Assembly (NCBI RefSeq): GCF_030169785.1
Contig: NZ_CP125854.1
Span: 744,001 to 808,000 of the forward strand
DNA length: 64,000 nt
DNA from: Bdellovibrio sp. 22V
GTDB lineage: Bacteria > Bdellovibrionota > Bdellovibrionia > Bdellovibrionales > Bdellovibrionaceae
Direction: 5' to 3'
The notes under the pieces are model-generated. The model was not told where the DNA came from. It worked only from the letters and a program-made list of their open reading frames with translations, and did no database searches. Of the stretch, positions 1,494 to 27,476 are shown one piece after another (within the stretch, counting starts at the first letter, position 1; each line of letters starts with the position of its first letter). Both the position numbers and the translations under genes were made by a program.

Positions 1494-2480
1494 ATGCTCA
1501 TCGATGTACTGCGCCCGGAAGCTTGGGAAGATTTAAATGACCGCGTTAAAACTTCCCTCGAGTTGGATGTAAAAATCCGCGCGCGTTCTTATGCGGGATT
1601 AGGCCAAGCTGTGTTCGAGATTTCGCAGGGAACAGCGCAATTTATGTCGCATAAAAAAGCCATTGGTGTGCTCCAAGGTCAAACCTCCGTTTTTGATTCT
1701 TTACTGCCGTACTACTACAAAGAAACTTACGACGTCGCCGTGCTGTCACATCTTAAGCTCGCGAATGTGAAGGAGTGGGTCGAAGGACTTAAGAAGGACA
1801 CTTGTTTTGTTCTTTACAGTGAAGATCATCCGGTGACAGGAGAAAAATACGGCTTTGTCGAAGAATTGGATAAACTGCTTAACGAGAAAAGAATTTTTTC
1901 TTTTCGCGTATCTCATGCGACACATTTTCACGAAAAAATAGAAATCAGACCTTACACGGTCCGTCTTTGTTCTTTCACTGCCTCCGCCGCGGTCGCTGTT
2001 TTAGGAGAGAGGTTTCGTTCTCCCACACTCATGGCGCAAAACATGTCTTGGAACGCGGACGGATTTTTAAATGAACTCAAGACGTCGCAACAAGGCCGTG
2101 CGACGAACGCGACATTGATTGAAAAGTTTGAACAAGAAATTTCCTCCGTTGCCAAAAAATTCTTTAAACAGGACAGCCTTCGTTTATTTGATCGTGCCGT
2201 GGCCATTCTTCCTGACGTGAGCGCGGAAGCTGTTGCACAAAATCTTTTTAAGAAATTAGGTCTCAGCGCAGAACAGGGTTGGCAGAAAATCAACAGCACC
2301 AATATGTGTCATTGGTCGGCGACAAAAATGTTTCGGCACTGGTGGGAACCGACTCCCTCCGCCGAGGACTTGCGCGGCCTTCTTGTGATCAGCCCCGAAT
2401 TGTTAAATACAAAAGACTTTGCCAAGATGTTGATATCTTCGTATGAAGAAGTAAAAGCACAGCAAAGTTGGGACGTTTGA
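1494..2480 (+). CDS. Unknown protein, possibly a degenerate PLP-transferase fold
   Basis: Predicted soluble protein of 328 residues with no signal peptide or membrane helix. I do not recognise it firmly. The stretch from about residue 100 to 180 (FVLYSEDHP, then VSHATHF, then YTVRLCSF and AVLGERF) resembles the large domain of fold-type-I PLP enzymes such as cysteine desulfurases, but no lysine sits where the PLP Schiff base would form; this is an impression only. The 3' end overlaps recO by 13 bases, so the two are probably co-transcribed and translationally coupled. The ATG at 1494 has only a distant GAGG about 20 bases upstream, so the start is less certain. Confidence 0.6.
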   Translation: MLIDVLRPEAWEDLNDRVKTSLELDVKIRARSYAGLGQAVFEISQGTAQFMSHKKAIGVLQGQTSVFDSLLPYYYKETYDVAVLSHLKLANVKEWVEGLKKDTCFVLYSEDHPVTGEKYGFVEELDKLLNEKRIFSFRVSHATHFHEKIEIRPYTVRLCSFTASAAVAVLGERFRSPTLMAQNMSWNADGFLNELKTSQQGRATNATLIEKFEQEISSVAKKFFKQDSLRLFDRAVAILPDVSAEAVAQNLFKKLGLSAEQGWQKINSTNMCHWSATKMFRHWWEPTPSAEDLRGLLVISPELLNTKDFAKMLISSYEEVKAQQSWDV

Positions 2481-20090: not shown

Positions 20091-22187
<2,097 letters not shown>

Positions 22188-22191
22188 AAAG

Positions 22192-22225
22192 AAAACCCAC
22201 ATCTTTTGGATGTGGGTTTTTAATT
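22192..22225. terminator. Terminator between ligA and the histone gene
   Basis: Perfect 12-bp stem AAAACCCACATC (22192-22203) and GATGTGGGTTTT (22209-22220), loop TTTTG, followed by TAATTT. A-rich sequence on the other side lets it work for the converging histone gene too. Confidence 0.9.
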
Positions 22226-22248: not shown

Positions 22249-22443
22249 TTATAGGTGGTCAATGACGATATCACGCGCCATAACAGTCTTACGACCATCA
22301 GCTTTCGCACTTTCGATACCTTTCAAGCAAAGTTGCTCAATAGCTTTGCTAAGTACATCGATTGTCTCAGCAGATGTGTTCATTTGACCTTTTTCCTTGA
22401 TAAGTTTTTTAACTTTGCTTGTAACTACAAGTACCTCTGCCAT
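22249..22443 (-). CDS. Bacterial histone-fold protein (HBb / Bd0055-like)
   Basis: A 64-residue protein that is a single histone fold with no tails. Helix 1 covers about 8-19 (TSKVKKLIKEKG), the long helix 2 about 24-50 (SAETIDVLSKAIEQLCLKG), and the short helix 3 follows the loop-2 motif RKTVMARDI, the RxTxxxxD pattern of archaeal and eukaryotic histones. It closely resembles the Bdellovibrio bacteriovorus histone Bd0055/HBb, reported as an abundant, essential nucleoid protein that coats or bends DNA. SD GAGAGG lies 7 bases before the ATG. Independent transcription unit of its own. Confidence 0.93.
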   Translation of the reverse strand: MAEVLVVTSKVKKLIKEKGQMNTSAETIDVLSKAIEQLCLKGIESAKADGRKTVMARDIVIDHL

Positions 22444-22533
22444 GATTGAACCTCTCCATCCGTGTTATTTGAACAATAAAAGGTTTGCATAGGGTCCAGT
22501 GATTGACAATATGAAATCTCTTCGTGCGGCGCA

Positions 22534-23994
22534 CTATCCTCTTCCAGGATTAGTAACTAATTCTGATTTACCATCCACGAATTTAAAAAGTTCCGCCTGT
22601 CTCGGTCCATTTTCCGTCGGAGAGATCCACACGAATGTTTTTTGATCGACGGCCTTTGTACACTCCACATCCAAAAATGCCGGCGACCAACACCCGCTAT
22701 TAAGATGCTCAACCGAACCAAAAATTTCATGACGGGCATTATGGGTGTGGCCAAAAACAATGCGCTGCGCTTTTGTGATTGCACTCGCCATTGCCAGGAC
22801 CCGGTCATCGGGTTCTTTGTACCCCGACACCAACGACGTTACTGACTTACTGTAAAACAAGAAGAACGGCAAAAGTAAGAACAGTGGAATGAACGCCCAG
22901 AAGAAAGAAATTTCATACACGGATCGAACAAAGACCATAAGTTGAAAAATCAAAAAGAAGGCTAAAAAGACGATGAACGCTCTATCAAGCCAAAGTTCCC
23001 GAGCCAGTAAAAAAGGATTGCTTGCGGCCGGAGCAACAAAAAGTTCTTTGAGTTCGCGAACCATGCGCGGTTCTGCATTGGCTTTTTCGGCGATCAAAGC
23101 AACACGGTCTTCAATTTTAAGGGGATTTCTGATAGGCGCCGCCAAACGATCAAAAAACGAGTGAAGGAGAGTCACCATTGCACCCCAAAACCATGTGATA
23201 ACAAGTCCCGGTTGAGCACGAACCATGTACTTTAAGAAGAAGCGAATATACTCTGGCAAACTCATGATATAGTTCGTATCCACGTGCGGATTGAAAAATC
23301 CCATGCCATTCATAATGTATCGGCACGCCAGATTTCCGAACGGCAGCTTCAAAGAGACAAAATTGTAGCCGCGAACATAAGGATTGATAGGATCTTCACA
23401 CATGCAATAGGGATCGTATTGATTGCCGTGCTCAACCAAAGTGTCTTGATTGCTGATATAGAACCATTCAACGAAGCGGACTTCGTTGCGTTTATGCTCT
23501 GGAAGAGCAATATGACGATGGATTTCCTCTTGGACTTCGGCAAAATGTAGTTCCAGGTCATGATTTCCCATGACAAAAATCACACGGTTGCCGCGCAATA
23601 CGAATTCACGCAAGGCGCGCACAAACTCCGCATGATCTTTCAAAATCACTTCGATTTTGTAGCGGGATCTTTCTTCTTGCGGATAAAGACCACGGTGTTT
23701 TTCAAGCCAGCTAATGTGAAATACCGGCTCTTCCGGCAGACGCAAAACACTGTCGAAGTCGAAGATGTCACCGTTTAAAATAAGCTCTACCGGTGCGCCT
23801 GCGGCTTTTTCTTCAATATGTTTCAAGAAACTTTCAAAGATATCATCGAAGAAAAACTGTCTTGTCTTAAATTTTTTCCATAATGGAAATTTAAGATTCA
23901 CGGGCTCCGCTTCGCTTAAATGCAAATCACTAATAATCGCCGTATGCGACGCGGATCTAAAATCAGGATAAGGTTGTGAAAAAGACGTGGGCAA
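22534..23994 (-). CDS. Membrane-anchored calcineurin-like metallophosphoesterase
   Basis: A 486-residue protein with the metallophosphoesterase motifs in order: ISDLHLSE (~21-28), NGDIFDFDSV (~73-82), MGNHDLELHF (~141-150), a GNQYDPY segment (~195) and GHTHNARHE (~418-426). Two adjacent hydrophobic helices (~345-390) are inserted between motifs, so the enzyme is probably held at the inner membrane. LpxH-like UDP-diacylglucosamine hydrolases share the motifs, but size and helices differ; the substrate is unknown. The start is TTG at 23994, with GGGAGG five bases upstream; no other start precedes motif I. Its 5' end overlaps the divergent murD frame. Confidence 0.82.
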   Translation of the reverse strand: MPTSFSQPYPDFRSASHTAIISDLHLSEAEPVNLKFPLWKKFKTRQFFFDDIFESFLKHIEEKAAGAPVELILNGDIFDFDSVLRLPEEPVFHISWLEKHRGLYPQEERSRYKIEVILKDHAEFVRALREFVLRGNRVIFVMGNHDLELHFAEVQEEIHRHIALPEHKRNEVRFVEWFYISNQDTLVEHGNQYDPYCMCEDPINPYVRGYNFVSLKLPFGNLACRYIMNGMGFFNPHVDTNYIMSLPEYIRFFLKYMVRAQPGLVITWFWGAMVTLLHSFFDRLAAPIRNPLKIEDRVALIAEKANAEPRMVRELKELFVAPAASNPFLLARELWLDRAFIVFLAFFLIFQLMVFVRSVYEISFFWAFIPLFLLLPFFLFYSKSVTSLVSGYKEPDDRVLAMASAITKAQRIVFGHTHNARHEIFGSVEHLNSGCWSPAFLDVECTKAVDQKTFVWISPTENGPRQAELFKFVDGKSELVTNPGRG

Positions 23995-25328: not shown

Positions 25329-27476
25329 TTATTCGCGGAAGTTTAGAACCGACAAAGAGTTCGCATCCACCGGCAGCACGCGAGAATATACTTTTTGCGT
25401 GCGCGCTCCTACGACCACCACTTCGTGGATGTCCTCAGGAACGTTGTAAAGGATGAATCCTCCACCTGCGATGCCTTTGCGATTTTGCAGAATCCGTCCC
25501 TGCATATCAAAGTACACAATGTGGCGGCTCTCGAATCCATCGTAGGCAGCCAAGTAAACTTCAAAGTCTTCGTCGGGCACAAATCCCACGATCAAGCCGG
25601 CACTCGGCGCATCGTCAATACGCAAATAAGATTTAATAGAAGACAGCCATGACCAGTGAACAAGAGGCGCGTGGATGAAAGCGTCCGTATCGTTATAGAG
25701 GTAACGAGCGGCCACGTAGTCTGCCCCTTCGGGCTGAATGCGCATCATACCTAAACGGCTAATATGTGGAAGACTGATCGTTGTTGTTCCGGTTTTTACT
25801 TCCAAGTCTTCTTGCAAGCTCTGCATGGTGACTGTTGCCGAACGCGCCTCACCCGTGAATGCATCGTAAACCCGTAAAGGCACGGCTTCGGACTTAATCG
25901 TCGATTCGATGTCACCTTGAGCTACAGACCCTTCTTCCACTACGACGTTCTGATATCCAAAGATAGAATCAGCTCGTGTCGCTAAAAGAGAATGGAAGCC
26001 CGGTTGCACGTTTACAAAAGCAAAAAGTCCGTTTTCACTTGTCGTTTTTAATGTCGCATCTGGAATCATGAATTGATTAAAGTAGACTGGTTGCAAACTT
26101 GGATCTGATTCGACAACTACATCAATGCCCGAAACATTTTTCCCATCCAAGGCGACCTTACCCCAAATGATGGTCGGGGCACCCTCAAAGGACTGAGCTC
26201 TTTGCTGAGCAACGATGTTTTGCAAAGCTTGAATCATAGAGTCCGGATAAAGTTGGGATTTAAATTCTTTCCCGGAAACAACAATGGAAGCTGTCTGCAT
26301 ATGACGAGGAGCGGCCGCTCTCATCACAGTGCTTGAACCCTTTGTGACGTTATCCATAGAAACAAAACCGTCTTTTTTTGCTGCGACTTCGCTAAGACCT
26401 TTTACGAAGGTCACTTTTGTTTGCGAAGGAGCCGCGTCGGTCGGTTTTGCGTTATAAGCACTTGTTACAATGCCTGCGAAGTCAGGATGCGGTTCAATCT
26501 TCAATTTAGGGCCTGAAACACGCTCTGCCTGATTTGTCGCTACGTGAGTCAGTCGGAAAGAACCTTCGCCCAAAGTTTTGCCATCTTTATCTACCAAACG
26601 GGCAATCACGGAACCCGTCGGCTCTTGCACTTGGATATTATAAAGACCTTGTTGTAAATCCACGCTGCCGAGTTCTTTTAAGATTCCTTCGTCACTTCGG
26701 CGGATTTCGATATGATGCTCATTTGTAACTGCAAGACCGCCGGTAATCTCAAGTGGGCCGACAATAGATTTAGCTCCGGCCGTTTCGCCGACCAGACCAT
26801 AAGAAGGCAGCATCTCGCCACCACCAGTGGCTGAAGTATCGGAAGAAGAAGGTGTGCGACCTTGGCTTTCATTCGGGAAAAACACTTTCGATTTCGGAAC
26901 TTGCGTCGTTTTTCCAGAAGGACCTGCGCCAGCAACATAGACGTTTGTTTTTTCCGGAGCTGGATTAAGAACTCCGGATTTTTCCAAAGTTTCTTTGGCC
27001 ATAGCTGACCACGTAGAACCTTGCCAGTCTTGTCCCAGAACTTCACTTCTTCTTTGCGCTTCTTGCAGGCGAACCGCTTGTGTACGAGGAAGCTGCTCTA
27101 TCCAAGTGTTATTGACTTCTTCTTCTCTTTCCGCAGACAACGGCAACGCCTCAGAAGCCAAGATCCTTTCGCTTGTCTTTTGAATTACCATCGCCGGCAA
27201 TTCCACACGTTTTGCAAACAAAGGAGCAGACGACGTATTTTCGTGAGCAAGGTTAACGGGTTTTATTTTTTCAATACGTGCCCATTCGGAATCACGTCTT
27301 TCAGATTCAAGAACTTCTTCGAAGGCAATATGGGGAGGGGAGTTTTTTTGCGCTTTAATGGTGAGTGCTTCATAAATAGGAATGAACTTCAAGCCACCTA
27401 AATGGCTTGACCAGCAGAAGCATCCCGCTAGTACTGCGAACGGTAGAAACCGCTTCAGTTGCATTCCTTGCAACAT
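25329..27476 (-). CDS. Large exported protein of unknown function
   Basis: A 715-residue protein with a hydrophobic N-terminus (residues 8-25, possible signal peptide or anchor). Residues 35-180 are charged and helical, 180-225 are Gly/Ser/Pro-rich and likely disordered, and the rest is beta-rich. Segments such as GKVALDGKNVSGIDVVVES and TSENGLFAFVNVQPGFHSLLA look like carboxypeptidase-regulatory or prealbumin-like repeats, suggesting a surface or envelope protein built of beta-sandwich units. I recognise no enzyme motif. It follows a small lipoprotein gene by 46 bases. SD GAGG stands three bases before the ATG; a second ATG at codon 5 is possible. Confidence 0.65.
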   Translation of the reverse strand: MLQGMQLKRFLPFAVLAGCFCWSSHLGGLKFIPIYEALTIKAQKNSPPHIAFEEVLESERRDSEWARIEKIKPVNLAHENTSSAPLFAKRVELPAMVIQKTSERILASEALPLSAEREEEVNNTWIEQLPRTQAVRLQEAQRRSEVLGQDWQGSTWSAMAKETLEKSGVLNPAPEKTNVYVAGAGPSGKTTQVPKSKVFFPNESQGRTPSSSDTSATGGGEMLPSYGLVGETAGAKSIVGPLEITGGLAVTNEHHIEIRRSDEGILKELGSVDLQQGLYNIQVQEPTGSVIARLVDKDGKTLGEGSFRLTHVATNQAERVSGPKLKIEPHPDFAGIVTSAYNAKPTDAAPSQTKVTFVKGLSEVAAKKDGFVSMDNVTKGSSTVMRAAAPRHMQTASIVVSGKEFKSQLYPDSMIQALQNIVAQQRAQSFEGAPTIIWGKVALDGKNVSGIDVVVESDPSLQPVYFNQFMIPDATLKTTSENGLFAFVNVQPGFHSLLATRADSIFGYQNVVVEEGSVAQGDIESTIKSEAVPLRVYDAFTGEARSATVTMQSLQEDLEVKTGTTTISLPHISRLGMMRIQPEGADYVAARYLYNDTDAFIHAPLVHWSWLSSIKSYLRIDDAPSAGLIVGFVPDEDFEVYLAAYDGFESRHIVYFDMQGRILQNRKGIAGGGFILYNVPEDIHEVVVVGARTQKVYSRVLPVDANSLSVLNFRE

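Follow-up and report, generated by a model that had tools for sequence, protein, structure and literature searches.

Bacterial histones are a recent field in which few proteins have been studied, and the closest described system to the gene considered here is the histone HBb (Bd0055) of Bdellovibrio bacteriovorus. In attack-phase cells Bd0055 ranked 12th of 2,125 quantified proteins, exceeded every other protein of the nucleoid fraction in abundance and localised to the nucleoid; a homologue was reported in 67% of Bdellovibrionota genomes, and deletion of bd0055 failed (PMC10627809). HBb is homodimeric, binds genome-wide without sequence specificity (PMC11317129) and has been classed as a 'bacterial dimer' among the α3 histones (PMC11390915). 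Its DNA-binding mode is disputed in print: one crystal structure presents the complex as a straight nucleohistone sheath (PMC10627809), whereas another study describes a dimer that bends DNA by ~84° over 36 bp through contacts from T8, S9, K10, K12, K16, N22, S24, K52, T53 and R57 (PMC11317129).

An earlier note on this DNA had placed a bacterial histone gene in the window, the 64,000-nucleotide stretch of Bdellovibrio sp. 22V analysed here, and had left its strand unstated. The coordinates proved exact, and the gene lies on the minus strand: in the ORF listing of the window a single ORF with its stop fills the interval, with an ATG start and 64 codons that translate to MAEVLVVTSKVKKLIKEKGQMNTSAETIDVLSKAIEQLCLKGIESAKADGRKTVMARDIVIDHL (Table 1). 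The plus strand is interrupted by a stop in the frame of this ORF; the listing also holds an overlapping plus-strand ORF at 22255–22449, which is without any support. Against 13 genomes of the genus, dN/dS ranged from 0 to 0.045 at pS values of 0.36 to 0.72, and a match (E ≤ 1e-3) is present in 132 of the 140 order genomes; on both counts the ORF is not a chance occurrence.

The protein is identical to HBb/Bd0055 at 63 of 64 positions across its full length, the sole change being I43V, and it therefore groups by sequence with the α3 family member HBb. A phmmer search of PDB sequences returned two Bdellovibrio histone sequences (8fvx, 8cmp) at E = 2.2e-35 and 2.5e-35. Pfam family CBFD_NFYB_HMF (PF00808) matches just over its cut-off (22.8 versus 21.4 bits) and has this single match in the genome of 3,601,631 bp. 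A reading of the sequence locates the RxTxxxxD motif at R51-K-T-x-x-x-x-D58, in which four residues separate T53 from D58, whereas the motif is printed as RKTxxxD in PMC11390915. Since the chain stops at L64, six residues past D58 of the RD clamp, the protein has neither an N-terminal nor a C-terminal tail, and the earlier description of a tail-less histone fold with this motif is borne out. At 64 residues, with no Cys-rich N-terminal part, the protein lacks the N-terminal ZZ zinc finger that marks ZZ histones.

Fold prediction, which the earlier note had proposed as a check, led to the same family. An AlphaFold2 monomer model, built from an alignment of 22 sequences, had a mean pLDDT of 86.5 and a pTM of 0.63 for the single chain and contains helices at residues 2–19 and 25–48 followed by a three-residue helical turn at 56–58, the truncated α2 and α3 arrangement of the bacterial dimer histones. 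With this model as the query, Foldseek found only five chains at E ≤ 0.001, all of them HBb crystal chains (8fvx, 9ezz A, 9ezz B, 8cmp and 9f0e) with E values of 3.3e-8 to 4.4e-7, each below 1e-6; HTkC, archaeal histones and HLp followed at E values of at least 0.019. Absence of the histone fold or of similarity to Bd0055, which the earlier note had named as grounds for abandoning its reading, can be set aside because of the 63/64 identity and the HBb chains heading the fold matches, and the kinship to Bd0055/HBb stands. The histone gene is real and had been read correctly, its protein is already known, and the value added here is comparative.

Residue conservation was counted in 97 sequences of 64 aa, our histone included, which are its nearer relatives (two of 99 sequences were left aside, L110 with 63 aa and L096, which is cut). 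Twenty-six positions are invariant in this set, among them D58, and so are the RKT...D motif and the α1 lysines K10, K12 and K16 that characterise the bacterial dimer histones of the α3 family. All published DNA-contact residues of HBb are unchanged in our histone; T8, S9, K10, K12, K16, N22, K52, T53 and R57 are invariant in the 97 sequences and S24 is present in 96. Farther relatives depart at T8, with serine in L110 and alanine in L120, L125, L126 and L127.

The statement in the earlier note that few bacteria encode such proteins is too strong. The 132 matches in 140 order genomes (101 of 102 of good quality), a count that includes ZZ-histone matches (G047, G077) and weak ones (G043, G102, G103, G104, G124, G126), are accompanied by histone-fold matches of any kind at E ≤ 1e-6 in a profile search of the phylum in 314 of 368 genomes, or 211 of 234 of good quality. 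Among the matches listed, and leaving partial, weak and ZZ-only ones aside, scores in the order and in three f11 genomes ran from 107 to 142 bits; elsewhere in the phylum the best match listed reached 102 bits and most others 82–96. Because of this gap, HBb proper appears to be characteristic of a single class; beyond it, other kinds of histone occur.

A second histone was sought with a 178-aa ZZ-type histone of another genus member (G004) as the query, the name 'ZZ' being that of PMC11390915; Pfam assigned this copy to no family above cut-off. A ZZ histone was found over most of the query length in seven of 24 genus genomes. In the other 17, our genome included, only HBb was matched, so that no ZZ (Bd3044-like) histone and, at the thresholds used, no second histone fold of any kind was detected in our genome. 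The gene bd3044 of HD100 has been stated to be essential as well (PMC11318664), whereas the deletion attempts covered here from PMC10627809 concern bd0055 only; our genome, in which a search turned up no Bd3044-like gene, bears on that statement.

Taken as a whole, these data are best explained by a dimeric histone, present in abundance, that binds DNA without sequence preference, bends it and compacts the nucleoid, which is almost certainly the correct account. Near identity to the HD100 protein suggests that the histone is a major chromatin component here too, and its function in this species would be that of HBb. It is the only histone detected in the species, and a promoter of its own, at a locus close to the origin, probably drives its production in quantity. 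Two 64-aa chains would pair into a histone-fold dimer, which would bind the DNA backbone through the α1 helix and the paired L1–L2 loops, using the ten contact residues (T8, S9, K10, K12, K16, N22, S24, K52, T53 and R57), and would bend the chromosome without sequence specificity and compact the nucleoid. PF00808 also takes in CBF/NF-Y subunits, and the gene could in principle encode, instead of a general chromatin protein, an NF-Y/TAF-like transcription factor or subunit dependent on a partner chain of another kind; this is highly improbable given the near identity to a homodimeric, genome-wide and sequence-independent binder (PMC11317129) and the lack of a second histone fold in the genome at the thresholds used. 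A mode in which dimers of the same protein bind end-on and sheathe straight DNA, with no bending, has a crystal structure of the complex in its favour (PMC10627809), yet two further crystal forms, tethered particle motion, circularisation assays and molecular dynamics (PMC11317129) make it unlikely, and the bending dimer remains the preferred reading.

The gene sits in a recurrent neighbourhood (Table 1). As the earlier note had said, it lies beside ligA, which is its convergent neighbour across an inverted repeat; the name ligA is that of the earlier note and is presumptive. Of 99 loci obtained after duplicate removal, 92 have a convergent ligA no more than 4 kb away (within 450 bp in 68 and at 450–4000 bp in 24), and the phosphoesterase lies within 450 bp upstream of the histone in 71. 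The seven loci with no convergent ligA comprise five with only 1.5 kb of downstream DNA and two (L046, L052) with 4 kb. Among 19 more divergent loci of the order, which partly overlap the first set, 14 have convergent ligA and five (L117, L120, L125, L126, L132) have none within the fetched stretch. The three f11 loci, from the same class and another order, also carry it; three f29 loci and three other phylum loci showed neither ligA nor the phosphoesterase in the stretch fetched. One locus retrieval took the best 80 of 96 loci. Our gene has each mark of the HBb-orthologue locus as we define it: the phosphoesterase, convergent ligA and proximity to dnaA.

Table 1 Features at the histone locus (window coordinates).
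Feature	Position	Strand	Basis or remark
ligA, NAD-dependent DNA ligase (presumed), convergent neighbour	20190–22187	+	ORF
Inverted repeat, 12 pairs, terminator-like	22192–22220	both	T-runs after it on either strand
Histone gene, HBb/Bd0055 orthologue, bacterial dimer histone	22249–22443	minus	ORF, PDB identity, PF00808, fold match
RBS-like GGAGAGGT	22450–22457	minus	6 nt before histone ATG, sequence reading
Weak -10-like AAACCT	22481–22486	minus	17 nt from TTGTCA
TATG, TG-type extended -10 element	22488–22491	minus	Conserved upstream element, putative promoter function
-35-like TTGTCA	22504–22509	minus	Conserved upstream element
Calcineurin-like phosphoesterase, co-directional	22534–23994	minus	PF00149, 90 bp upstream of histone

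Several features of these loci were noted in passing. The genes that occupy the histone–ligA gap vary between lineages in the 11 loci L008, L010, L003, L024, L043, L053, L061, L073, L086, L100 and L104, as if this stretch were tolerant of insertion; by eye, and with no family search, they appear protease-, acetyltransferase- or beta-lactamase-like. A 715-aa protein at 25329–27476 (minus strand) of the window has no Pfam match over cut-off; many loci carry a relative of it on the upstream side of the histone. The contig of L055 is titled as a Streptomyces griseus MAG and carries a Bdellovibrionales-like histone–ligA–gatCA locus; the title is probably wrong.

The earlier note had also credited the gene with signals of its own. 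An RBS-like site, a conserved upstream element and a terminator-like repeat are indeed present, and conservation is what points to a promoter. The pattern TTGTCA-N11-13-TATG, at 22509–22488 (minus strand) in the window, occurs within 150 bp upstream in 37 of 97 loci (111 loci less three with short upstream DNA and 11 duplicates) against 0.07 expected from mononucleotide shuffles; because the sequences are related, this shows conservation and not the frequency of independent retention. By eye it is present in all 24 loci of the genus, and it is missing from 60 of the 97. The stricter pattern TTGTCAN{11,14}TATGNAAA occurs once in the genome, at the histone, which says little alone because the reversed control pattern is likewise found once. 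TTGTCA and TATG together resemble a promoter of the TG-extended -10 type whose -10 hexamer is weak, and a generic sigma-70 scan found no promoter upstream of the histone. The terminator scan lists the inverted repeat on the minus strand only, the plus-strand T-run being read from the sequence; the repeat probably serves as a terminator-like element common to the histone gene and ligA. A search for Rfam elements in the window gave none at gathering scores.

The less familiar aspect of this known gene is the steadiness of its place near the start of replication. Where histone and dnaA share a contig, which is the case in 54 genomes from nine of the ten families of the order, the distance between them is 41.8–65.0 kb in 53 (median 48.2 kb); our histone lies at 46.9 kb, and the exception is G045 at 100.8 kb. 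These distances used 124 of the 132 histone matches, the eight ZZ-only or weak ones named above being omitted, and on the dnaA side 110 of 128 dnaA-bearing genomes were computed and the other 18 compared by eye, which added G079 and G081, both with the two genes on one contig and with direction unscored. Of 52 genomes scored for direction, 50 (all except G045 and G097) have the histone oriented away from dnaA, and it would therefore lie on the leading strand if oriC is at dnaA, as reported for HD100 (PMC11318664). Across the 11 genus genomes that consist of a single contig, ours among them, the distance of HU/IHF-family genes from dnaA ranges from 64 to 2,012 kb and is at least 371 kb for 43 of the 44 genes. 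In our genome the nearest HU/IHF-family gene (G000:C1:876712-876978) is 64 kb from dnaA, the nearest in the ten other genus genomes being at 371 to 1,249 kb; with orthology presumed, this position hints at a rearrangement.

A location close to the origin may bring the histone a dosage benefit, but the same data fit slow decay of an ancestral gene order, in which the steady place beside dnaA and ligA gives the histone no dosage advantage, and we rate this the likelier account. The gatCA–ligA–histone–phosphoesterase block tends to stay together, so that the neighbours of the histone are equally origin-proximal, which favours slow decay; the retention of the position in 53 of 54 genomes across nine of ten families, and the shifts in HU/IHF-family distances in three of the 11 single-contig genus genomes (G000, G011, G014), argue against it.

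A second comparative pattern concerns residues 26 and 56. The common HBb state is E26/A56, and one group of the family has A26/D56. Among 129 distinct histone folds, drawn from HBb, ZZ and a small number of further histones of the phylum, 128 carry at least one acid (D or E) at these two sites: 97 at residue 26 only, 24 at residue 56 only and seven at both. The one fold with neither comes first in a histone that fuses two folds (L185). This 131-aa protein, encoded at 1698–2093 (minus strand) of its locus in a phylum member outside the window's class (G256), has its two histone folds head to tail. The exchange gave a Fisher p of 8e-19 with kinship among the folds ignored, and mutual information placed the pair 10th of 1596, with nine other pairs ranking higher. 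On a poorly resolved tree of 62 columns residue 26 changes 10 times on the best tree, only two changes being forced by well-supported branches, and the median p of a sign test across independent pairs was 0.5.

The exchange of acids suggests that both sites may serve one purpose. In the monomer model α2 starts at residue 25 and α3 at 56, which puts residues 26 and 56 in the first turn of a helix, and each could therefore act on its own helix. Dimerisation in histone folds brings loop 1 of either chain into contact with loop 2 of its partner, so the two residues should meet across the dimer. An N3 capping role for both was dropped, as the model helices begin at 25 and 56. Insulation of paralogues, by which an acid at 26 in HBb and at 56 in ZZ would make mixed dimers clash, was rejected as a general explanation. 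Its pattern is present in several genomes (for example G004, G007, G010 and G011, with HBb E/A and ZZ S/D); against it, both proteins have an acid at 26 in G052, G028, G030, G058 and G027, and in G061 and G063 HBb is A/D and the ZZ fold acidic at both sites (loci were assigned to genomes through coordinates, by eye).

A joint reading of the two patterns, which we put forward tentatively and hold somewhat less probable than its negation, is that the DNA-binding end of α3 histones needs a carboxylate from either subunit and that the position 42–65 kb from dnaA serves a dosage need, which would arise when filaments replicate many chromosomes. Residue 26 would lie on the loop-1 side of α2 and residue 56 adjoins the DNA-contacting R57 of α3; the acid would position R57 or stabilise the paired loops, and two types of histone that can stand in for each other would result. 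In the portions of the literature searched, neither the 26/56 rule nor the distance to dnaA nor the linkage with ligA was met, and the word 'ligA' is absent from the main text of PMC10627809 and PMC11318664. Our histone adds no new kind of protein; the comparison yields testable handles in an acid rule with two states for the DNA-binding end, a histone locus that nine families of one order keep close to the origin, and a natural species of Bdellovibrio with no detected second (ZZ) histone.

Set against known systems, our histone shares with HBb/Bd0055 of HD100 (PDB 8fvx, 8fw7, 8cmp, 9ezz, 9f0e) the fold, the RD clamp R51/D58 with D49, the contacts and the lack of tails, and differs in having I43 instead of V43. 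The ZZ histone of Bd3044 type resembles HBb in its C-terminal histone fold, which is 45–50% identical to genus HBb over 58–59 residues, and differs in its Cys-rich N-terminal part and in frames of 154–225 codons in complete copies. The face-to-face histones HLp (Leptospira perolatii) and HTkC (Thermococcus) share the α3-truncated fold (Foldseek TM 0.72–0.73 over 52–55 columns) and are 34–40% identical to our histone; unlike HBb they form tetramers, and HLp wraps about 60 bp (PMC12701072). The archaeal histones HMfA and HMfB, 28% identical to ours, have the histone fold, RD clamp and KT motif in common with HBb but possess longer α2 and α3 helices and form hypernucleosomes (PMC11317129).
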